This document shows positions 1 to 28,707 of a stretch of DNA of 32,644 nucleotides, in pieces. Under the pieces are notes generated by a model that was not told the DNA's origin, ran no database searches, and was given only the letters and a program-made list of their open reading frames with translations. Every line of letters starts with the position of its first letter. Positions within the stretch are counted from its first letter, which is position 1. The stretch lies in NCBI GenBank assembly GCA_026391475.1, contig JAPLED010000063.1, positions 1 through 32,644 on the forward strand, in the 5' to 3' direction. The position numbers and the translations under genes were made by a program. The DNA is from Bacteroidia bacterium (GTDB taxonomy: Bacteria; Bacteroidota; Bacteroidia; Bacteroidales; VadinHA17).

Positions 1-1748
1 TTTGTATAGTAGGGTGGTGGATGACAGGTAATGCAACGATTATTGGGGGGGATTTCATTCCCAAAGTTATCTTTTGTCCGCTCAAAAATAGCTTTACCAC
101 GAAGTTGAGATTCGGTCAGTACACCGTCTGGATTATACTGAAGATTAGGTGGATATTGAATTCCTGTTAATATATAGGCAGTAATTGCATCAAGATCCTT
201 ATAACTAAACTGTTCAGTCCTTGTCAGAACAGTAGAAAAACGCATCCCGTCTTGCTTATATACAGTCTGGTTTTTACCATTCCATTTGAATGGCGGAGTA
301 TCGCGGATATCACGTAAAGATTGTGTATTTGTCAGATTACGTCCCATATCCTTTGATGCCATATTATATACCAGGCCATCCTCATGCATGTCTGGATGAC
401 ATGTATAACAGTCGAACTGATTCTGAAATGTGTGTCCTGAATTGTTGAAAAGCCTGCGTCCCTGCCGGGCTACTGTAATCCTCCGGGGGCCGCCAAGGTC
501 AATAGTATTGATTGTCTCAAGACTTTCAGTATTTATTACAGCAATCCTGTCCTCCAGTTGCTCGGCAACATACAGGAATTTTCCGTCAGGGGAGAGTGCT
601 AATCCTTTTGGATCTGCCCCGGTGTAAATACGCTTAATAACATAACGGCTGCTGATTCCCAGATGATTAGAATAGGAACTTAGCATTTCAGGAGAAGATT
701 CAGCAATCAGGCTCCTGACAGAGTCAATATCAACCACAGAAATGCAATTCACACCTGAATTTGAAACAAAAGCTTTTTTCCCATCCGGTGAGATTACAAT
801 ATCAAATGGATCGGAATAATATGCATTTGGTTCATCGAGCAACAGCTGAATAACCCTGCCGTTTTCCTTCTGCTCAATGATCCCGATTCCATAGGTCATC
901 ATCCAACCCTGTTCAACCTGAATGGATGGGACCAGGTTCTTGGGCCTGATCATCGTCACTAATGCCATATCTCCGGTGGGAGTAAAGGCAACATTTTCCA
1001 TCATATAGGCTGATTCTATGTTACGTCGTTCGCTGATTCTTTGTCTGCTTTCATCCACTACTGTGAGTTCGCTCCTGACTGTTTCTCCATAAGGAGCAAT
1101 AAGGGCACGTCTGCTGGTCACATATAAAGTTTTTCCGTCTGGAGACAATTGTGTCCCGGTAGGATTATTTCCTGCGTTAAACCTTTTTCGTTCTTCTCCG
1201 GTACTGAGTTCAAAGACAGAAATATTTGATGAAAATGAATTGACAACATACAGAAATCTGCCGTCAGCACTTAAAGAAAGTCCGGCAGGACCATTGCCTG
1301 TTTTCAGAGTGTCAACCACTTTTGACGCGGCTAAATCTATAACAGATACATTATCAGACCATTGGTTACTGACGTAAGCCATTTTACCTCCATCATCAAG
1401 AACCACGCTATGAGGGTACTGTCCAACCTTGATTTTATTTAATACCTTACGATTTTCGGTATCTACTACAAGTAAATCATTGCTCTCCTGTGCTACAACA
1501 TACAAAAGGCTTCCATTTTTAGAAACAGCCATATTAAATGGTGAGTAATAATCTGCATTTACCAGTTTGGAAACCAGTTTGTTCTTTGATGTATAAAGAT
1601 GGCATGAGATACATAGAAGCGGATGATCATCAACAGCTGTCTTGGAATTAACATGTGCCCTGGCCAGTTTGTGTCCGGGAAAATGTGCAACCAATCCCAA
1701 CGAAATGAGAACTCCGAATATCAAGAGTAATTTATATGATCTCTTCAT
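1..1748 (-). CDS. Secreted YVTN beta-propeller protein with three c-type heme motifs and a C-terminal cytochrome-peroxidase-like region (partial, runs off left edge)
   Basis: Open minus frame from ATG at 1746-1748 (MKRSYKLLLIFGVLISLGLVAHFPGHKLARAHVNSK...) with no stop to base 1. CxxCH motifs: CISCH (1599-1613), CYTCH (396-410), CITCH (21-35). Repeated propeller strands such as 'LSADGRFLYVVN', 'LSPDGKTLYVTS', 'ISPDGKKAFVSN'. Not in the ORF track because no stop falls in the window. Confidence 0.85.
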   Translation of the reverse strand, partial: MKRSYKLLLIFGVLISLGLVAHFPGHKLARAHVNSKTAVDDHPLLCISCHLYTSKNKLVSKLVNADYYSPFNMAVSKNGSLLYVVAQESNDLLVVDTENRKVLNKIKVGQYPHSVVLDDGGKMAYVSNQWSDNVSVIDLAASKVVDTLKTGNGPAGLSLSADGRFLYVVNSFSSNISVFELSTGEERKRFNAGNNPTGTQLSPDGKTLYVTSRRALIAPYGETVRSELTVVDESRQRISERRNIESAYMMENVAFTPTGDMALVTMIRPKNLVPSIQVEQGWMMTYGIGIIEQKENGRVIQLLLDEPNAYYSDPFDIVISPDGKKAFVSNSGVNCISVVDIDSVRSLIAESSPEMLSSYSNHLGISSRYVIKRIYTGADPKGLALSPDGKFLYVAEQLEDRIAVINTESLETINTIDLGGPRRITVARQGRRLFNNSGHTFQNQFDCYTCHPDMHEDGLVYNMASKDMGRNLTNTQSLRDIRDTPPFKWNGKNQTVYKQDGMRFSTVLTRTEQFSYKDLDAITAYILTGIQYPPNLQYNPDGVLTESQLRGKAIFERTKDNFGNEIPPNNRCITCHPPPYYT

Positions 1749-1750
1749 AA

Positions 1751-3187
1751 CTATTCCAGTGAAACCTTTTTTTCAACGACTTTACTTATATGAACCGGTA
1801 TATTAACCGGGGGTTTTTTTACTGATATGGGTACTCTGTTCCCAGGAACCATCTCAGGGTCTTCGTGACAACCTACGCATCCGCGCCGCTCATTAGGACG
1901 CAGCCATATCCAGCCACATGGACCTTGTAAAACGCGACCGTTCTCATCAATGGTCTGTATTTGAAAAGGTATATCAGCGATAACCTTCAAATAAAAAGAA
2001 CCATCTTCCTCGACCTGAACCACTCCAAGCGTTGAGTCTCTTCCAATTACCTGAATTCTGGATGCTTTAGTCAAGGTGGAGGGATTACCTGATGATTGCA
2101 TTTCAATGACATTGATATCCTGACAAAGGAGTAATCCGGTTTTCACACCCATATCCACCTCGCTTGGCAGTTTTTTCGGATTGTCATGTTTTTCAACAAC
2201 AACTGCTTCTATTATATCAAAGTCATTATTATTATAGATAGTCTGGCCAAGGGTCTTATTTTCCGGATCAAACTCATAAAGAGCATACCGGTCAGCTTCA
2301 GACTTACGGTAGGAGACAAGCAGCCTGCCTGATTGCAGCGGGAAAACAGTCTGAAAATTACCTTTTATTTCAGATGTGAGATTAACCCATGTATGCAAAG
2401 GCCGGTTATAATTTATGGAAACTACATTTCCTCCTTCCTGACTGCCTTTTTCTGATTCTATAAATACTATTTTACCATTCATTGTTTCCCATCCACGGCC
2501 TGACAATTTACTACCCTCTGAACCTTTATAAAATAGCTCAGCCTTTGTACCATCCGGTCGGAGAACCATAAATACCGCATCTCTCTGATCAGGATTAAGT
2601 TGTCTGCTGATTGTTAAAACACGTCCGTCTTTCAAAACTGTTGAAGCAGAATATGTATTAGGATTAAAAGTAATACGTTGAATATTAGTTCCATCGAGAT
2701 TACAAGTGTAAAGTGAATGCCCTGTTTTCAACGAATCATCCATGGCTAATTTGCTAAATACCAAACGACCACCTGGCAAATATGAAGGATCGGTACAGTT
2801 TTCCAAAGAAGAGGTAATCTGCCTGATTTTTGAATCCTCTAAATTCATTTCCCAAATCTGCCATATATCGTTTAGCTTTTGCTGTGCAGAAAACAACAGA
2901 TGTTTGCCGTCATAGGAAATTTCGGGAGACTGAGCCGAATAGTAATCTTCTGTAAGTACCTTCAGCGAGCCACCTGATTTATAAGGGTTCATGGCAACGA
3001 TACGTGCCTTAGCGATATATCGCCAGGACTCTCCGGATACATTATTATTATCATGCCCCTTCCCGCTAACCTGTGTAAAAATGATCATGCCCTCCATGGA
3101 CTTATTCCTGCAGGATGAAAAAAAGATTCCGGAAGAGCCAAAGGCCATTATGACAGAAAGAATTATGGTCGCTCTCAGTCTATTCAT
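1751..3187 (-). CDS. TolB/WD40-like propeller lipoprotein with one heme motif, HzsA-related family
   Basis: ORF 1751-3271. The internal start MNRLRATIILSVIMAFGSSGIFFSSCRNK at 3187 gives a lipoprotein signal and avoids overlap with the upstream gene. Repeats such as 'PEISYDGKHLLFSAQ'; C-terminal 'WLRPNERRGCVGCHEDPEMVPGNR' (CVGCH at 1865-1879) resembles the HzsA-like family. Confidence 0.8.
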   Translation of the reverse strand: MNRLRATIILSVIMAFGSSGIFFSSCRNKSMEGMIIFTQVSGKGHDNNNVSGESWRYIAKARIVAMNPYKSGGSLKVLTEDYYSAQSPEISYDGKHLLFSAQQKLNDIWQIWEMNLEDSKIRQITSSLENCTDPSYLPGGRLVFSKLAMDDSLKTGHSLYTCNLDGTNIQRITFNPNTYSASTVLKDGRVLTISRQLNPDQRDAVFMVLRPDGTKAELFYKGSEGSKLSGRGWETMNGKIVFIESEKGSQEGGNVVSINYNRPLHTWVNLTSEIKGNFQTVFPLQSGRLLVSYRKSEADRYALYEFDPENKTLGQTIYNNNDFDIIEAVVVEKHDNPKKLPSEVDMGVKTGLLLCQDINVIEMQSSGNPSTLTKASRIQVIGRDSTLGVVQVEEDGSFYLKVIADIPFQIQTIDENGRVLQGPCGWIWLRPNERRGCVGCHEDPEMVPGNRVPISVKKPPVNIPVHISKVVEKKVSLE

Positions 3188-3198
3188 TAAAAAGATAT

Positions 3199-4914
3199 TT
3201 AGGGTTCTTTGACAGTAAGAATCTGATTGGCTTTGATATTCTCCAGAACCTGTAATTTGCCTGAAGGCCACTTAATCTCAATTCTTTCAATCATTTCATT
3301 CTTTGCAAGACCAAAATGCATCCGCGGGTCGTTCTGGGAAAGGTAACCTGTTGTACTTCTTTTCTGAGCTGTCTGCACCTTGCCTCCGGAAGTTACTTTT
3401 ACCCTGGAGCCGATTCCGTCCTTGTTGCTGGTAGTTCCTATCAGATTAAGTATCAGCCAGTTATTTTGATTCCCTTTATTGTTTCGCAGAAATGCACCTC
3501 GATTATTCAGATTCACAATATACCCATCAATATCACCATCATTGTCATAATCACCAAAGCAAGCCCCGCGTCCGACCAGTTTTTGCATAAAATATTTACC
3601 ACGTTCCGTCGAAACATCCTTGAATTTTCCATCGCCAATATTTTCAAATAACTGATCTTCCTGCCCATAAAGGTGTTTTAATGCACCGTTTGTTTTATAA
3701 ATATCAACATCGCCATCATTGTCATAATCTATAAATGATGAGGACCATCCAACAAATTGCCCGGCCGGCATTGCAATACCGGCAGGATATGATTTATCAC
3801 TGAAAATACCGTTTCCCAAGTTTTCATAAAGAGAACAATACTTATCATCAGAAACAAAAAGATCCAGTAATCCGTCACCGTTATAATCGGCAAAATCCAC
3901 TGACATGCTTACGGTTGATTCTCCAGCCTGACTGAATGCTGTTCCGGACATAGTGCCCCTGTCAGTGAATCCCTTTCCCCCGTCGTTGTGCCAGAGATAA
4001 TTCAGTGAATGATCATTGGATACATAAATATCAACGAAACCATCATCATCATAGTCAGCAGCCCCCACACCCATTGCTCTTCCATCAATGTCTTTGATTC
4101 CCATACTTTTAGTTACATCTTCAAAAGTACCATTACCCATGTTATGATACAATATATCCGGCTGGGCATCATAAGCCATCGGGCCGGGAAAGCCATCCGG
4201 AGCATAATAGTATTTATAATTAGAATCAAAATTGATGTAATTCCCTACATAAAGGTCAAGAAAACCATCATTATCATAATCCAGCCAGACAGCTCCTACG
4301 CTGAATTCATTTTCTCTTCCTCCAACCTTAGCACGTTTAGTAACATCGGTAAAAGTCCCGTTACCGTTATTTTTATAAAGTACATTTGCTCCGTAATTAC
4401 TTACGTATAAATCGGGATAACCATCATTATTGTAATCGCCGACTGTTACTCCCATGCTATACCACGGACCGCCCACACCTGCTTTTTTAGTAACATCTTC
4501 AAAAGTACCATCATGACGGTTCCGATAAAGATGGTTCTCAGGCAATTTAACTGGTTTTTCGCCACCACTTAAACCTTCAACCCAGGTACCACTGGTGATA
4601 TATAAATCAATGTATCCATCCTGATCATAATCGAGAAAAGCGGCACCTGCGCCACTTGATTCAACAATATTGGTCAAATCATCGTCACCGATGGAATGAA
4701 TAAAATCCAAACCGATCTCCTGCCCGATCTCCTGAAAATAATCATCATTTGCCTGGGGAAGGGTTGCGACCGATTGTTTCTGTGATTTAGATGAAGATTT
4801 ATTATTGGAATGACATCCGGACAGGATCAGCAAAAAAACGAAAAGGTAAACAAAGCACCTGTATTCATTTGAATTGCTGCAATAATTCTTTTTTATAAAC
4901 ATTGTGCGAGCCAT
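3199..4914 (-). CDS. FG-GAP/VCBS repeat lipoprotein with ASPIC/UnbV C-terminal domain (CRTAC1-like)
   Basis: Many Ca-binding loops (DYDQDGYID, DYNNDGYPD, DYDNDGFLD, DYDDDGFVD, DYNGDGLLD, DYDNDGDVD, DYDNDGDID). ASPIC motif 'GIGSRVKVTSGGKVQTAQKRSTTGYLSQNDPRMHFGL' and 'IEIKWPSGKLQVLENIKANQILTV'. Lipobox LILSGC. Confidence 0.92.
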   Translation of the reverse strand: MARTMFIKKNYCSNSNEYRCFVYLFVFLLILSGCHSNNKSSSKSQKQSVATLPQANDDYFQEIGQEIGLDFIHSIGDDDLTNIVESSGAGAAFLDYDQDGYIDLYITSGTWVEGLSGGEKPVKLPENHLYRNRHDGTFEDVTKKAGVGGPWYSMGVTVGDYNNDGYPDLYVSNYGANVLYKNNGNGTFTDVTKRAKVGGRENEFSVGAVWLDYDNDGFLDLYVGNYINFDSNYKYYYAPDGFPGPMAYDAQPDILYHNMGNGTFEDVTKSMGIKDIDGRAMGVGAADYDDDGFVDIYVSNDHSLNYLWHNDGGKGFTDRGTMSGTAFSQAGESTVSMSVDFADYNGDGLLDLFVSDDKYCSLYENLGNGIFSDKSYPAGIAMPAGQFVGWSSSFIDYDNDGDVDIYKTNGALKHLYGQEDQLFENIGDGKFKDVSTERGKYFMQKLVGRGACFGDYDNDGDIDGYIVNLNNRGAFLRNNKGNQNNWLILNLIGTTSNKDGIGSRVKVTSGGKVQTAQKRSTTGYLSQNDPRMHFGLAKNEMIERIEIKWPSGKLQVLENIKANQILTVKEP

Positions 4915-4970
4915 TTTTTATAAACCTATGATTATTAATAAATTTTTTTAAGAGAGACTTTCATTAAAAA

Positions 4971-5110
4971 ACTCACGTGAGCAACATTTATTTCCGACTA
5001 AACAAACTCACGTGAGCAATATTAAACCCTGACTATGCAAACTAACCTGGAATATATTAAACCCTGACTCTATAAATTAACTATGGCAATGTTAATCCAT
5101 GACTATTAAA
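4971..5110. repeat. Degenerate 35-bp tandem repeat, 4 copies; first two carry palindrome CTCACGTGAG
   Basis: Units 4971-5005, 5006-5040, 5041-5075, 5076-5110: actcacgtgagcaacatttatttccgactaaacaa / actcacgtgagcaatattaaaccctgactatgcaa / actaacctggaatatattaaaccctgactctataa / attaactatggcaatgttaatccatgactattaaa. Confidence 0.85.
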
Positions 5111-5112
5111 CA

Positions 5113-5145
5113 AGGATTAAAATAGGATTAAAAAAGGATTAAAAA
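5113..5145. repeat. 11-bp tandem repeat x3 (AGGATTAAAAW)
   Basis: aggattaaaat (5113-5123), aggattaaaaa (5124-5134), aggattaaaaa (5135-5145). Confidence 0.9.
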
Positions 5146-5262: not shown

Positions 5263-6589
5263 TTATGAGATTGTGGGAAGCAAAACAACAACCCTCGTAC
5301 CTTTACCGATTTGTGAGGAAAGTTTTATTGTCCCGTTATGATTTTTAATTATCTGATTAACAAGAGGAAGTCCTATCCCACTACCCGAAATAGAAATGGC
5401 ACTCAGAAATACCTATACCTCTGTCTTCAAAGACTACCTCAATCCATTTATCGACATGCTGAAACTTTACATCAACAGTATGGTCAGGGGAGTATTTGCA
5501 AGCATTATCTATTATGTTTGAAACGGCAACCTTTAGCAAAGACTCATCTCCAACTACAATCATCTGGTCAGAATCGGTTAATGAATTATCTATAGAAATA
5601 TTAATATGGTAATCGTTATTGAACCTTTTCATCTCCTCCTGAGCCTGCCAGAGAATTTCATCAATCCTGATCTTATTGTTTAAATTCACAGGACCCTCGG
5701 CGCTGGTGCGGGCTATCAAAAGTAACCTGTTTGAGAGGTCAATCAAAGATTTAATGTCATCAAGTACAGATCCAAGTGCAGACTTGTATTCTGTAGTTGA
5801 CCGGTCTTTCATCATCAAAACCTCCAATTGTCCATTTATAGAAGTAAGCGGCGTTCTTAGTTCATGCGATGCGTTCGCAATAAAATCCTTCTGCATGGCA
5901 AATGATGTCTCAAGACGTTCAAGCATTTTATTAAAAGTTTTTGCCAGTCTGCCGATCTCATCAGTTCCATTACCTTCAAAAACTCTTAAATTCAGGCTGG
6001 TAATAGAAATATCTTCGACCTTTTTTACCACATCTGATATAGGTTTAAGTGCTCTCCCCGAATAGAACCATCCGGCAATAAAAAACAATAAGAGACTGAT
6101 CAGACAAACAATTATTAAAATAATCTCTAATTTTTCCAGGCGTGCGGACCCCTCTGTGTCAACGGCTGCAGCAATAATCACAAACCTGTCATAAGTCGTA
6201 AAATATAATGTACCTATAACTTCAAACGGATACTGCTTATAGTATACCTTATAACCTAATCTTACTCTTTCGAGGATATTATTACTTATTTCTATCTCCT
6301 TGTTTTCATCTGAACTGTAAACAATATCATTATTAAAATTGATAATTATTATCTTTTCATTTTGCAGGTTGACAGGATTATTCTTTTCGATTCCCAGGAC
6401 ACGATTTGCATCAACTTTAGATGCATTAAATAGTAAATTAGCTGTGCCCCTGGCTTTATTCCAGAGGCGGTTATAAAAGTCATCCTTCCGGAAACTGGCT
6501 GAAGAAAAATAAATTGCAACTGATGCAATTATCATAATTATTCCTCCTAACAGGAGAAACTGTAGTGCTAATCTGGTCCTGATCTGCAT
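5263..6589 (-). pseudogene. Membrane sensor histidine kinase (HAMP, HisKA, HATPase_c), frame-disrupted between the G1 and G2 boxes
   Basis: ORF 5381-6622 has H-box 'ANASHELRTPLTSINGQLEVL', N-box 'SNIIDNACKYSPD' and G1 'EDRGIGIS', then ends abruptly as 'ECHFYFG*'. The remaining domain is in another frame down to TAA at 5263-5265: '...ISISGSGIGLPLVNQIIKNHNGTIKLSSQIGKGTRVVVLLPTIS*'. Likely start MQIRTRLALQF at 6589. Confidence 0.8.
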
Positions 6590-6590
6590 T

Positions 6591-7277
6591 CTAAAATTCT
6601 CCAAAAACATAGCCAAAACCAACCCTTGTATGGATCAGTTTTTTATCATATCCTTTATCAATTTTCTTTCGTAAGAAGTTAACATAAACATCTACAACAT
6701 TTGTACCGAAATCAAACCTGGCATCCCAAACCTTTTCAGCAATATCATTTCGTGACAATACACGTCCGCTATTCCTCATGAAGTATTCAAGTAAAGAAAA
6801 TTCTTTGGCAGTCAGATCAATATGTGAACTTCCTCTGGTGGCAACTTTCTTATCCAGATCAAGTTCCAGGTCACCGACAATAATCCTGTTTACTATGTCA
6901 TGTGATTGATTAGCTTTCTTAAGTAAAACCTTAACTCTGGCAAGCAGCTCCCTGAATTCAAATGGTTTGACAAGATAATCATCCGCTCCGGCATCAAATC
7001 CGATAATTTTATCATCAGTTGTGCCCAGGGCAGTAAGCATCAAAACCGGTACATTTGAATTCAGGTTCTTAAGCTTCTTACATAAATCCAGACCGCTTAT
7101 TCCGGGAATTACAATATCAAGTATGAAAAGGTCATATTTATAAAGTTGGGCAAGTTTTTCTGCAGACAATCCATCATAAGCTATTTCAGCATTATAATTG
7201 CTTTCTTCAAGTCCCTTTTTTATAAATGAAGCTACCTTCGGTTCATCTTCGACAATCAATATCTTCATTGAGTTCAA
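6591..7277 (-). CDS. OmpR/PhoB-family response regulator
   Basis: Receiver 'MKILIVEDEPKVASFIKKGLEE...DLFILDIVIPGISGLDLCKKL...LMLTA...GADDYLVKPFEFRELLARV' plus winged-helix 'TAKEFSLLEYFMRNSGRVLSRNDIAEKVW...VDVYVNFLRKKID...HTRVGFGYVF'. Confidence 0.96.
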   Translation of the reverse strand: MNSMKILIVEDEPKVASFIKKGLEESNYNAEIAYDGLSAEKLAQLYKYDLFILDIVIPGISGLDLCKKLKNLNSNVPVLMLTALGTTDDKIIGFDAGADDYLVKPFEFRELLARVKVLLKKANQSHDIVNRIIVGDLELDLDKKVATRGSSHIDLTAKEFSLLEYFMRNSGRVLSRNDIAEKVWDARFDFGTNVVDVYVNFLRKKIDKGYDKKLIHTRVGFGYVFGEF

Positions 7278-7711: not shown

Positions 7712-10700
7712 ATGTTTAAAAAACTACTGACTATGCAAATTTTTACCAATGTACGGCGCATTGCGCTGTTTTTTCTCAGCATGGTACTTTCCTCGGGCAT
7801 AATGTTTGCTCAGGAAAGAACCATTACCGGGAAGGTTTCTGCTGCAGGCGAGGGACCTTTACCTGGTGTAAACGTTATAGTACAGGGGACGACGATCGGA
7901 CAGATCACCGACCTTTCTGGTGCCTACTCAATCAGAGTGCCGGGTCCGGCAGCAGTGCTTTTGTTTTCATCTATTGGTTATACAACCAAACAGGCTGCAG
8001 TCGGTACACAGTCCGTGATCAACATGATTCTTGAATCGGATGTAACTTCCCTTCAAGAAGTGGTGGTCACAGGTTACACCTCTCAACGGAGAAGGGAATT
8101 GACCGGTGCTGTTGGAACTGTTGAACCTGCCAAACTAACCGCTGTACCTACAGGAAACGTGAGTAACGCGTTGCAGGGACGTACATCCGGTGTTACAGTT
8201 ATAGGGAACGGGCAGCCGGGGTCTACATCCAAAGTAAGGATCAGAGGATTCAGTTCATTTGAGAACAATGATCCTCTTTATGTTGTTGATGGAGTTCCAA
8301 CCCAGGACATTGCTTCAATGAACCCAAATGACGTTGAATCAATTTCCGTTCTTAAAGATGCCGGTGCTGCTTCAATTTACGGGTCCAGGGCATCAAATGG
8401 TGTTATCATCGTTACTACCAGAAAAGGTAGTAAGGGTACAAAAGTAAACTACAGCATGTTCTACGGTACTCAAGATCCTGGTAAAGGTCCTGATAATATG
8501 TTAAATGCACAGGAATATGCAAACCTTCAGTGGCTTGTTAACAAAAATGACGCATTAGCACCGGAAATTCATCCGATCTACGGAAATACTGCAAATGCTA
8601 CACCTACATTACCCAGCTGGGCTGCAAATACTAATTGGTACAAGGCAATCACTTCTCCTGCTCCAATTATGAATCATGATCTTTCTCTTTCCGGAGGTTC
8701 AGATTATGCTAAATTCTTTGCAGCGATAGGTGTTCGCAAGCAGGATGGTATGGTGATTCACACGAATGCTGATAAATATACTATTAGATTCAATTCCGAA
8801 TTCAGTTTCTTAAAAGACCGGGTGAAAGTGGGAGAGAACTTCACTGCGACTTATGGTAGGAGCCTTGGAGTTGCTAACCTGGGCGAAGGAAGCCCCATCT
8901 CGATGGGAGTTTACAGGCAACAACCCATAATTCCTGTTACATGGACAGGCGCCAATTTTGTCGGATTATCCCATACATATATCGCTGGCGATTGGGGTGG
9001 AACAGGAATTGCTGCAAGGTTGGGTAATGCTACCAACCCGGTAGCAAGCCTTACAAGGGCTAAGGACAATGTATATTGGAACTTCCGTATGATCGGGAGT
9101 ACGTATATTGATATAAAGATTTTGCAGGGTCTGAACTTAAAATCCACAGTGGGAGGCACTTTCTACAATGGATTTGGCCAAGGCTACAACTTTGCTACAT
9201 ATGAAAATTCAGAAAACGTGCTTACTAATAGTTTGGGACTTAATTCATACTATGGTGGTGACTGGGTATGGACAAACTTACTCACCTTCGATAAGACATT
9301 CGGACAGCATAAGATCCTTGCCGTTGGCGGTTATGAAGCTGTAAAGTATGGCATTGGACGTGGTATGGATGCCGCCCGTGGCAATTACTTCACTGATGAT
9401 CCGAATTATCGTACATTAAGTAATGGAGCCTTAATTCAAAGCGCGAATTCCTCTTTTAATACCCCCACCACTCTGATATCACAATTCCTGAGAGCTGATT
9501 ATCAACTGATGGACAAATACATGTTAAGCGCCACAGTACGACGCGATGGTTCTTCAAGGTTTGGCGTAGATAACCGTTATGGTATTTTCCCTTCATTTTC
9601 TGCAGGTTGGCGTATCAGCGATGAAGATTTTTTTAAGGGAATCAGTTTTATAAATGACATGAAAATAAGGGGATCTTGGGGTCTGATGGGTAACCAGCTT
9701 GCCGTTTCTCCACAAAACCAGTTCTACAGCTACGGAGGCTCACCTTCAACATCTTTTTATGACATTAACGGAACATTTACTTCATCAGTCCAGGGATTCC
9801 GTCCGACACGTATTGGTAATCCAAATGCCAAGTGGGAAACCAACGAAAGTACCGACATCGGGTTTGAAGCTGCTCTGTTGAACAGTAAAATCGGTATCAA
9901 ATTTGACTGGTACTCCAAGAAAACAAAGGATTTGTTGTTTGCTCCGGAATTACCTGGAACCGCAGGGGCAGCTTCTGCTCCATACATTAATATTGCGGCT
10001 ATGTCCAATACAGGATTCGACATGGAATTTTCATTCAGGGATAAATGGGGTGATCTTGGCTTTGACGGAAGTGTCGTTTTAACTACCGTCAAAAATAATA
10101 TAGATAAAGTTGCCGAAGGTGTTAACTTCTTTGACTATGGAGGTGCCACCACAAGGATAGGGGCGGGTAACAGGAACCAGGTAGGACATCCGATGTCTGC
10201 ATTCTTTGGGTACAAGGTAATTGGTTTATTCCAGAGCGCAGCTGATGTTACCTCTTCTCCCAAGCAAGACGGCGCTGAACCAGGATTTTTCAAATTTGCT
10301 GACACCGATGGTGATGGTACAATTACTCCCGCTGACAGGCAATTTATAGGAGATCCTAACCCTAAATTTACATATGGATTTAACCTGGCATTTACCTATA
10401 AGAATTTTGATCTGACCGCCTTCCTCTACGGTGCGCAGGGAAATGATATCTTTAACTGGAACAGATATTGGGTTGATTTCTGGCCATCCTTCCAGGGACA
10501 GAAGAGTACGGACCTTTTGTACAAGAGCTGGACAACTACAAATACAAACACAACTGTACCAAAAGCATCGGGCAAGTCCAATTTCTCAACAAATACACAG
10601 ATTTGCAGCTATTATCTTGAAGACGGATCATATCTCAGGATGAAAAACCTGCAGTTAGGTTATACGATCCCTGAAAGCGTTATGAGTAAGATCAATGTTA

Positions 10701-10861
10701 AATCTCTCAGATTATATGTGCAGGGAGTGAATCTTTTTACGTTTACCAAATACACCGGACTTGATCCAGAACTTGGTGGTGACGACCGGGCTTATGGTTC
10801 TGATACTGGCAACTATCCGCTTGTAAGGCAGTACATTTTCGGACTCAACCTTAGTTTTTAA
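7712..10861 (+). CDS. susC: SusC/RagA-family TonB-dependent outer-membrane transporter
   Basis: Signal peptide, CarboxypepD_reg-like N-terminus 'RTITGKVSAAGEGPLPGVNVIVQGTTIGQITDLSGAYSIRV', plug 'VRIRGFSSFENNDPLYVVDGVP...ASIYGSRASNGVIIVTTRKG', and SusC-typical C-terminus 'DTDGDGTITPADRQFIGDPNPKFTYGFNLAFTYKNFDLTAFLYGAQGNDIFN'. Confidence 0.97.
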   Translation: MFKKLLTMQIFTNVRRIALFFLSMVLSSGIMFAQERTITGKVSAAGEGPLPGVNVIVQGTTIGQITDLSGAYSIRVPGPAAVLLFSSIGYTTKQAAVGTQSVINMILESDVTSLQEVVVTGYTSQRRRELTGAVGTVEPAKLTAVPTGNVSNALQGRTSGVTVIGNGQPGSTSKVRIRGFSSFENNDPLYVVDGVPTQDIASMNPNDVESISVLKDAGAASIYGSRASNGVIIVTTRKGSKGTKVNYSMFYGTQDPGKGPDNMLNAQEYANLQWLVNKNDALAPEIHPIYGNTANATPTLPSWAANTNWYKAITSPAPIMNHDLSLSGGSDYAKFFAAIGVRKQDGMVIHTNADKYTIRFNSEFSFLKDRVKVGENFTATYGRSLGVANLGEGSPISMGVYRQQPIIPVTWTGANFVGLSHTYIAGDWGGTGIAARLGNATNPVASLTRAKDNVYWNFRMIGSTYIDIKILQGLNLKSTVGGTFYNGFGQGYNFATYENSENVLTNSLGLNSYYGGDWVWTNLLTFDKTFGQHKILAVGGYEAVKYGIGRGMDAARGNYFTDDPNYRTLSNGALIQSANSSFNTPTTLISQFLRADYQLMDKYMLSATVRRDGSSRFGVDNRYGIFPSFSAGWRISDEDFFKGISFINDMKIRGSWGLMGNQLAVSPQNQFYSYGGSPSTSFYDINGTFTSSVQGFRPTRIGNPNAKWETNESTDIGFEAALLNSKIGIKFDWYSKKTKDLLFAPELPGTAGAASAPYINIAAMSNTGFDMEFSFRDKWGDLGFDGSVVLTTVKNNIDKVAEGVNFFDYGGATTRIGAGNRNQVGHPMSAFFGYKVIGLFQSAADVTSSPKQDGAEPGFFKFADTDGDGTITPADRQFIGDPNPKFTYGFNLAFTYKNFDLTAFLYGAQGNDIFNWNRYWVDFWPSFQGQKSTDLLYKSWTTTNTNTTVPKASGKSNFSTNTQICSYYLEDGSYLRMKNLQLGYTIPESVMSKINVKSLRLYVQGVNLFTFTKYTGLDPELGGDDRAYGSDTGNYPLVRQYIFGLNLSF

Positions 10862-10880: not shown

Positions 10881-12611
10881 ATGAAAAAGAAGTATATTAT
10901 ATTAATCTTTATCCTTGTTGTACTCGGAACATGGAGTTCATGCAAGAATGATTTTCTTACTGTCGCTCCGACAGGTGGTTTGGATCAGGGATTATTGCAA
11001 ACCACTAAAGGGCTTGATGCCCTTCTGATTGGCGCTTATTCGATGATTGACGGTTTCTCTAATCAGATGGGTATGTCCGGTTGGGAAACAACTGCCAGCA
11101 ACTGGGTGTTCGGCTCTATACGGGGTATGGAAGCGAACAAAGGAACGGATGGTGGCGACCAGCCTGACATAAACCCCATGATGACTTTTTCAGAGACTGC
11201 TACAAATCCTTACCTGAATCTTAAATGGAGAGAGGTATATGAGGCTGTTTCCAGGTGTAATAGCGTTATTAATACCGCCACTCAGGCATTAGCTGCAAGC
11301 AAAATTACTCAGGCACAGGCTGATAGTTACATTGCACAGGCCAAGGTACTTCGCGGATGGTACCATTTTGAAGCATGGAGAATGTGGGCAAAGGTACCCT
11401 ATATGGATGAAAAAGCAGATCCGGCTGCCGCTACGAACACGACAGATATCAGTGACAAAATCATTGCCGACCTTACGACAGGAAAAGATTTGCCAAATAA
11501 TATGGGGGCAATAGGCAGAATCAACGGAACCGTATGTAAAGTGATGCTCGCAAAGGTATTGATGCAAGCGAAGCACGACTATGCCGGGGCACTGGCACTG
11601 CTTACGGTTGCTAAAACCGGTACCAAACCAGATGGTAAAGCTATAGGGCTTGCTCCAACTTTTGGTGAGATCTTTGATATCGCAAACCGTAATGGCATTG
11701 AATCCGTTTATACAATTCAGTATTCTGTAAATGATGGTTCGGGAGCATGGAATTCCTCAACTGGTGAGGTATTGAATTTTCCATATAAGAGCGGTGCCTC
11801 TCCCGGAGGATGCTGCGGATTCTTCGATCCAACCCAGGAGTTTGTGAATTCGTTCAGAACATCAGGCGGATTACCATTGCTTGACAATTCCTATAATCTT
11901 GATCCGGTTAAGAATGACCAGGGAGTTGCTCTGACTGCGGTTTTTGTGCCAGATGCAAAACCGCTTGATCCCAGACTTGACTGGACCGTTGGCAGAAGGG
12001 GAATTCCTTACTGGGACTGGGGACTACATACCGGATCAGACTGGATCCGCGACCAGACCTATTCAGGGCCCTTTAGTCCTAAGAAAGCAGTTTACAAAAA
12101 ATCACAGACTGATCAATATACAGATCATAGCAGTTGGACCTCAGGTTATACAGCCAATGGTTACCGTATGATCCGTTACGCTGATATTCTCTTATTGGAA
12201 GCAGAATGTCAGATCGAAACCGGTGCTGCAGACCTTGGCCGGACCAATATTAACCTGATACGGGCAAGAGCTGCAAATGCAGCAGGTTTTGTGAAGATGC
12301 CGGATGGTACCAATGCAGGTAATTATGTAATCTCACAGTACACTACTCCATTCGCTGATAAAGCTACTGCACAAAAAGCGCTCAGAATGGAAAGAAAACT
12401 TGAACTCGGGATGGAAGGCCACAGGTACTTTGACCTGAACAGGTGGGGAATTACCGTGACCGAACTAAACAGAGTTCTTACCTATGAGAAAACAATGCCA
12501 TGGGGTGCTAATTTGTACGGCAGCGCATCGGTTGGAGCTGAAGATGTAACTTTCCCGATACCACAACGTCAACTTGACCTTAGTAACGGGAAATTGACCC
12601 AGAACAGATAA
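10881..12611 (+). CDS. susD: SusD/RagB-family substrate-binding lipoprotein
   Basis: Lipobox 'WSSCKNDFL'; 'AKVLRGWYHFEAWRMWAKVPYMDE', 'GYRMIRYADILLLEAE', 'RMERKLELGMEGHRYFDLNRWG', 'FPIPQRQLDLSNGKLTQN'; directly downstream of susC. Confidence 0.96.
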   Translation: MKKKYIILIFILVVLGTWSSCKNDFLTVAPTGGLDQGLLQTTKGLDALLIGAYSMIDGFSNQMGMSGWETTASNWVFGSIRGMEANKGTDGGDQPDINPMMTFSETATNPYLNLKWREVYEAVSRCNSVINTATQALAASKITQAQADSYIAQAKVLRGWYHFEAWRMWAKVPYMDEKADPAAATNTTDISDKIIADLTTGKDLPNNMGAIGRINGTVCKVMLAKVLMQAKHDYAGALALLTVAKTGTKPDGKAIGLAPTFGEIFDIANRNGIESVYTIQYSVNDGSGAWNSSTGEVLNFPYKSGASPGGCCGFFDPTQEFVNSFRTSGGLPLLDNSYNLDPVKNDQGVALTAVFVPDAKPLDPRLDWTVGRRGIPYWDWGLHTGSDWIRDQTYSGPFSPKKAVYKKSQTDQYTDHSSWTSGYTANGYRMIRYADILLLEAECQIETGAADLGRTNINLIRARAANAAGFVKMPDGTNAGNYVISQYTTPFADKATAQKALRMERKLELGMEGHRYFDLNRWGITVTELNRVLTYEKTMPWGANLYGSASVGAEDVTFPIPQRQLDLSNGKLTQNR

Positions 12612-27194: not shown

Positions 27195-28707
27195 ATGAAA
27201 CGTCTGTTGTTTTTCTTATCATGTTCAGTATCTCTCTTTTTTCAACCGCCCAAAAGGCTGATTTCAAAGCAGCTGAAAAATTAATCCTGATACGCAAGGA
27301 CAGGCAACTGAAAAACCTTGATGTGTGCCTTGTTAATGCTGAAACCGGAGTTCTTTCTGTTCTCTTTAGCGAGCAAACATGGCCCTATTTTAATAATGAG
27401 TATACCCGTTTATCTGTCCTTAATGAGGGAAATGATATAATCTGGTGGTCAGAAAGAACAGGATGGGGTCAACTTTATCTCTACGATGGAAAAGGGAATC
27501 TGAAGAACCAGATCACTAACGGGTATTTTGTTACAGGAAGGGTTGAACGGATAGATACCCTTGGAAGAATGTTATATTTTGAGGCTTTTGGAAGAGAACG
27601 GGGGTCCACCCGTATTACAGCATGAAATACAAAGCCTCTATTGACAGAGGAGGAATGACCCTTATTACAAAAGAGGGTGCCAACCATTCGTTCACAATGT
27701 CGAAATCAAACAAATACTTTGTTGATACTTACTCAACAGTGGATAAAGTTCCTGAAGCAGTTCTACGGGATAATAACGGGAATATAATTCTCAGTCTCGA
27801 AAGGGCTGATATTTCCCAGCTCTACAAAGCAGGATGGAAAATGCCCGAAACTATTGTTGTTAAAGCAAAAGACGGTGTTACAGACTTGTACGGTGTTATG
27901 TATAAGCCTTTTGATTTTGACTCCACCAGAAAATACCCTGTCATCTCTTATGTTTACCCTGGTCCTCAAACCGAATCGGTACAATATTCATTCACTGTTA
28001 CAGGTGGTAAAAATGTGGCTCTTGCCCAACTTGGTTTTATAGTTGTAAACTTTGGCCATCGCGGTGGTAGCCCGATAAGAAATAATTACTATCACACTTT
28101 TGGCTACAGCGACCTCAGAGATTATGCTCTTGCCGACGATAAATATGGTATTGAACAACTTGCCGATATATTTAAATTTATCGATATAAGCAGGGTTGGT
28201 ATATATGGTCATTCCGGTGGCGGATTCATGTCGACGGCTGCAATTCTATCATATCCTGATTTTTATGATGTCGCCGTTTCCTCTTCCGGTAATCATGATA
28301 ATAATATTTATAATCAGTGGTGGGGTGAAACTCATAATGGTGTCTCAGAGGTTGAAAAGAAGGTAACCAGGAAGGATGAAATAAAAGATAGCCTCAATAA
28401 AAAGAAGGAGGTGGAAATTTCATTTAAAGGGGTTGTTGAGAAAAACCAGGATCTTGCAAAAAACCTCAAAGGCCATCTGATGCTTGTTACCGGAGATATA
28501 GATAGTAATGTTCATCCCGGGAATACACTCAGGGTAGTTGATGCACTTATTGCGGCAAATAAACGATTTGATTTCATGATGTTACCTGGTCAGCGACATG
28601 CTTATGGAAATGATGTTCCCTATTTCGACAGGATTATGTGGTATTATTTTGCTGAATATCTTCTGGGGGATTACAGAACCAGTGTGGATCTGCTTGAATT
28701 CGAATAG
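27195..28707 (+). pseudogene. Prolyl oligopeptidase family S9 (DPP4-like), disrupted
   Basis: ORFs 27221-27625 and 27622-28707 join as '...YFEAFGRERG|VHPYYSMKYKASIDRGG...'. Catalytic motifs GHSGGG, DSNVHPGNT, GQRHAYG. Signal peptide MKRLLFF../..LIMFSISLFSTAQ split across frames; most of the propeller missing. Confidence 0.82.

Follow-up and report, generated by a model that had tools for sequence, protein, structure and literature searches.

The window (the whole stretch of 32,644 nucleotides that was analysed), from an uncultured Bacteroidales genome, carries a two-component system on the minus strand. The OmpR/PhoB-type response regulator gene (6591–7277, minus strand) encodes a protein with Response_reg and Trans_reg_C domains, and its Pfam coverage is complete (PF00072, 1–111 of 111; PF00486, 3–77 of 77), in line with the earlier note, which had described the regulator beside the kinase as intact. 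The sensor histidine kinase gene (5381–6622, minus strand) is truncated. Between the kinase gene and the FG-GAP/ASPIC(UnbV) gene (3199–4914, minus strand) lie four perfect TTTAAT direct repeats with an 11-bp period (5100–5143, minus strand), and the FG-GAP/ASPIC gene is the first operon gene downstream of them. The minus-strand block at 3–4914 comprises this FG-GAP/ASPIC protein, a protein matching HZS_alpha and a beta-propeller protein with haem-binding CxxCH motifs, and most near relatives have the same block following their kinase gene. The HZS_alpha Pfam match refers to the middle domain of hydrazine synthase alpha, a name that alone is not evidence of anammox.

On the plus strand, an intact SusC-like TonB-dependent receptor gene (7712–10861) is followed by a SusD-like lipoprotein gene (10881–12611), which is likewise open and intact in the window; the pair is syntenic with the two-component system in several relatives. 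Additionally, a DPP-IV/S9-type peptidase pseudogene lies at 27195–28707 (plus strand). The corresponding protein has about 774 aa in relatives, and the pseudogene has several lesions: its frame changes in the signal-peptide region, about 0.8 kb is deleted, and a single nucleotide is missing near 27600.

Anatomy of the sensor kinase gene

The kinase open reading frame encodes 413 aa from a TTG start and contains an in-frame ATG (M5) just inside this start. Its domains are ordered HAMP-HisKA-HATPase_c. The HAMP (PF00672, E = 1e-9) and HisKA (PF00512, E = 5.6e-14) domains are complete, while HATPase_c ends just past the G1 box, covering positions 1–51 of the 111-position profile vs 1–108 and 2–109 in the two orthologous proteins scanned. 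Several histidine-kinase hallmarks are present: apart from the HAMP and HisKA domains, these are the H-box SHELRTP with the phosphoacceptor histidine and an H-E-x-x-T phosphatase-type motif (5849–5869, minus strand), the N-box NIIDNACKY (5492–5518, minus strand), and the G1 box DRGIGIS (5405–5425, minus strand), which is the final catalytic motif kept in frame. The 3′ end of the frame reads ...FEDRGIGISECHFYFG*, and the F-box/ATP lid, G2 and G3 are all missing from it.

The rest of the gene persists as an out-of-frame 3′ remnant (5263–5400, minus strand) that reads AISISGSGIGLPLVNQ...PTIS*. This frame directly follows the truncated one, carries G2 (GSGIGL) and G3 (GKGT), and ends as ...SAISISGSGIGLPLVNQIIKNHNGTIKLSSQIGKGTRVVVLLPTIS* at its natural stop at 5263. 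Within the remnant no ATG, GTG or TTG precedes G2, and an in-frame stop stands just upstream. Separate translation of the C-terminal fragment was rejected, since the remnant offers no such start codon in frame before G2.

The kinase resembles HAMP-HisKA-HATPase_c kinases paired with OmpR/PhoB-type regulators in its domain order, in its H-, N- and G1 boxes and in its REC-Trans_reg_C operon partner. Unlike them, it has the F-box/ATP-lid region deleted and G2 and G3 out of frame.

The 44-bp deletion

DNA alignment with 14 orthologues revealed a single clean gap of 44 bp in the window kinase, with ungapped homology on both flanks. The junction lies between plus-strand bases 5401 and 5402, the gene being on the minus strand, and falls between ATTTCTGAG and TGCCATTTC. 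L040, the closest orthologue (93% protein identity), shows what was lost: together with the preceding codon, the missing bases there encode EEDLLKIFEPFYRGA, a stretch of about 15 residues corresponding to the F-box/ATP-lid region between G1 and G2. As 44 equals 3 × 14 + 2, the deletion also shifts the kinase frame. The earlier note had read from the window alone a net loss of several tens of base pairs with a frame change, and it had called for comparison with an orthologous kinase; the alignment bears out this reading, and the HATPase_c domain of the two orthologues scanned is nearly complete.

The same note had stated that the break is not at a homopolymer, and indeed no homopolymer of four or more bases occurs at the junction. 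The surroundings also lack repeats longer than 6 bases, slippery tracts and simple repeats. The proposed mechanism of slippage at an ATTTCT microhomology did not hold. Slippage deletion between two repeat copies leaves only one copy, and here ATTTCT stands on both sides of the junction, 9 bases before and 4 bases after it. ATTTCT slippage was thus rejected as the deletion mechanism. No other obvious microhomology was seen at the junction when the deleted segment was read from the orthologues, and a simple short deletion describes the event best.

Comparison with relatives and alternative readings

We searched 62 genomes of the genus for orthologues of the kinase with a match cut-off of E ≤ 1e-60, and obtained matches in 29 genomes besides that of the window. 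The intact same-genus orthologues are 55–93% identical to the window kinase. All the other orthologues have longer open frames (422–506 aa vs 417 aa in the window), one of which is cut off by a contig end, and intact orthologues such as L040, L041 and L042 give 457–467 aa from the same region. In those inspected, F-box and G2 share a single reading frame, and the truncation was found in none of the other genomes among the 62 searched. Within the window's own genome there is no second kinase copy or alternative contig, and the next best kinase shows 23% identity over part of the length.

Compared with nine relatives, the kinase sequence before the deletion has a dN/dS of 0.07–0.14, a sign of purifying selection, and the remnant past the deletion carries no stop. 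The low dN/dS and the stop-free remnant imply that the break is recent relative to the split from the sampled relatives. The intact response regulator has a similar dN/dS, 0.07–0.13 outside L041, whose regulator is divergent. In L041 (regulator 105–782, kinase 754–1974), the regulator is 61% and the kinase 86% identical to its counterpart in the window, a contrast that would fit replacement of the regulator gene through recombination.

We consider it likely that a conserved OmpR-type two-component system lost the function of its sensor kinase through a recent, lineage-private, out-of-frame deletion of 44 bp. Judged from the sequence, this is an ordinary case of recent pseudogenisation in a gene of a known kind, with a lesion predicted to be disabling by comparison with intact orthologues. 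The literature that we searched for kinase pseudogenes accompanied by orphan regulators offered nothing specific.

The main competing account, which we regard as unlikely, is that the organism's kinase is intact and that 44 bp were lost, or two strain variants fused, when the contig was assembled. The assembly is a draft with 133 contigs, and the third-position divergence from L040 climbs from 0.15–0.32 to about 0.41 within the final 100 bp ahead of the junction and is higher beyond it too. This rise in divergence from near relatives around 5.5 kb makes local recombination or a strain mosaic possible; however, the climb begins before the junction, in the block 5402–5497, and not at the junction itself, so that it does not favour a chimeric join placed exactly at the deletion. 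The surroundings contain no homopolymer and no repeat longer than 6 bases that could collapse, and nothing at the junction points to an assembly error. A second broken gene on the same contig, at 27.2–28.7 kb, might also hint at assembly trouble, but this peptidase gene has several independent lesions, like real pseudogenes. We further looked for frame breaks in about 79 genes that were comparable between 0.99 Mb of the window's genome and 0.60 Mb of the closest relative. Only two genes in this sample were truly broken, the kinase and the DPP-IV-like peptidase, both inside the window, and the sampled rest of the genome showed no other frame breaks; the other rows that had been flagged showed stops confined to terminal extensions of open reading frames, or shorter coverage at an end. 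With the broken genes of the sample confined to this window, a generally error-ridden assembly is unsupported.

It is improbable that the truncated protein has been kept as a kinase-dead sensor, which by analogy might bind or dephosphorylate the regulator through its intact DHp helices. The complete HAMP, HisKA, H-box and N-box and the low dN/dS would fit such a role, and a precedent is known from Corynebacterium glutamicum, in which a CA-domain-disabling frameshift of ChrS that arose in laboratory evolution (ChrS_CA-fs) was shown to act, giving more heme tolerance than deletion of chrS (PMC9491836). In both cases the frameshift abolishes the function of the CA domain, while the sensor part and the DHp stay. 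But the low dN/dS is equally explained by the recency of the break, and the same truncation is absent from every other genome searched. ChrS_CA-fs, moreover, had a cross-talking paralogue (PMC9491836), whereas the window kinase has no close paralogue for cross-phosphorylation, and nothing indicates that its truncated form has been selected for. About as slim is the chance that a phosphatase-only or sequestering truncated kinase locks the regulator and the TTTAAT-controlled operon in one state in a ChrS-like manner; if true, this would be a pseudokinase comparable to ChrS_CA-fs that arose in nature and not in laboratory evolution. Programmed frameshifting or phase variation that restores the HATPase_c domain is hardly conceivable: the downstream frame is open to its natural stop, but restoring the frame would not bring back the 15 missing residues, and the junction offers no homopolymer, slippery tract or simple repeat.

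Candidate operator and predicted consequences of the deletion

OmpR/PhoB-type response regulators bind direct repeats of about 11 bp, and the TTTAAT array, which lies upstream of the FG-GAP/ASPIC operon, is plausibly the best candidate for the operator of this regulator. Of the 19 loci scanned, 18 have the array 3′ of the kinase; L049 and L053 are among them, although the genes downstream of it are unrelated there. In the 2.8-Mb genome of the window, the exact three-copy core occurs in one place only, as two overlapping matches, and the reversed control of this pattern has no match; in 58 genomes from the genus, the pattern read forward gives far more matches than its control. A literature search on TTTAAT direct repeats of OmpR-type regulators yielded nothing specific. 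Three 35-bp tandem repeats also lie upstream of the FG-GAP gene (4965–5069), two of which contain the perfect palindrome CTCACGTGAG (4972–4981 and 5007–5016).

No TTTAAT array stands upstream of SusC in the window. The earlier note had placed an intact SusCD system next to a regulator that may have lost its kinase; the SusCD part stands, with both genes open and, in several relatives, syntenic with the system, but the implied loss of SusCD control is unsupported, because the operator-like repeat precedes the FG-GAP/ASPIC operon and none precedes SusC.

If the kinase was inactivated as we propose, the deletion, by taking the F-box/ATP lid, G2 and G3 out of the reading frame, would leave a 413-aa product unable to bind ATP productively and devoid of autokinase activity, considering the roles of the ATP lid, G2 and G3. 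As ATP would no longer be bound productively, the regulator would cease to be phosphorylated by its own kinase, and would be either unphosphorylated or phosphorylated only through small phosphodonors or cross-talk. Control of the FG-GAP/ASPIC operon, the likely target preceded by the TTTAAT repeats, would then be lost or constitutive.

The window would thus hold a natural loss-of-function allele of a sensor kinase, mainly useful as a natural knockout: with the regulator and its likely operator still in place, the role of the kinase would show when FG-GAP/ASPIC operon expression is compared between this lineage and its relatives. The TTTAAT array, conserved and nearly unique, is probably a more useful lead than the kinase itself, since through it the target of the regulator becomes testable.
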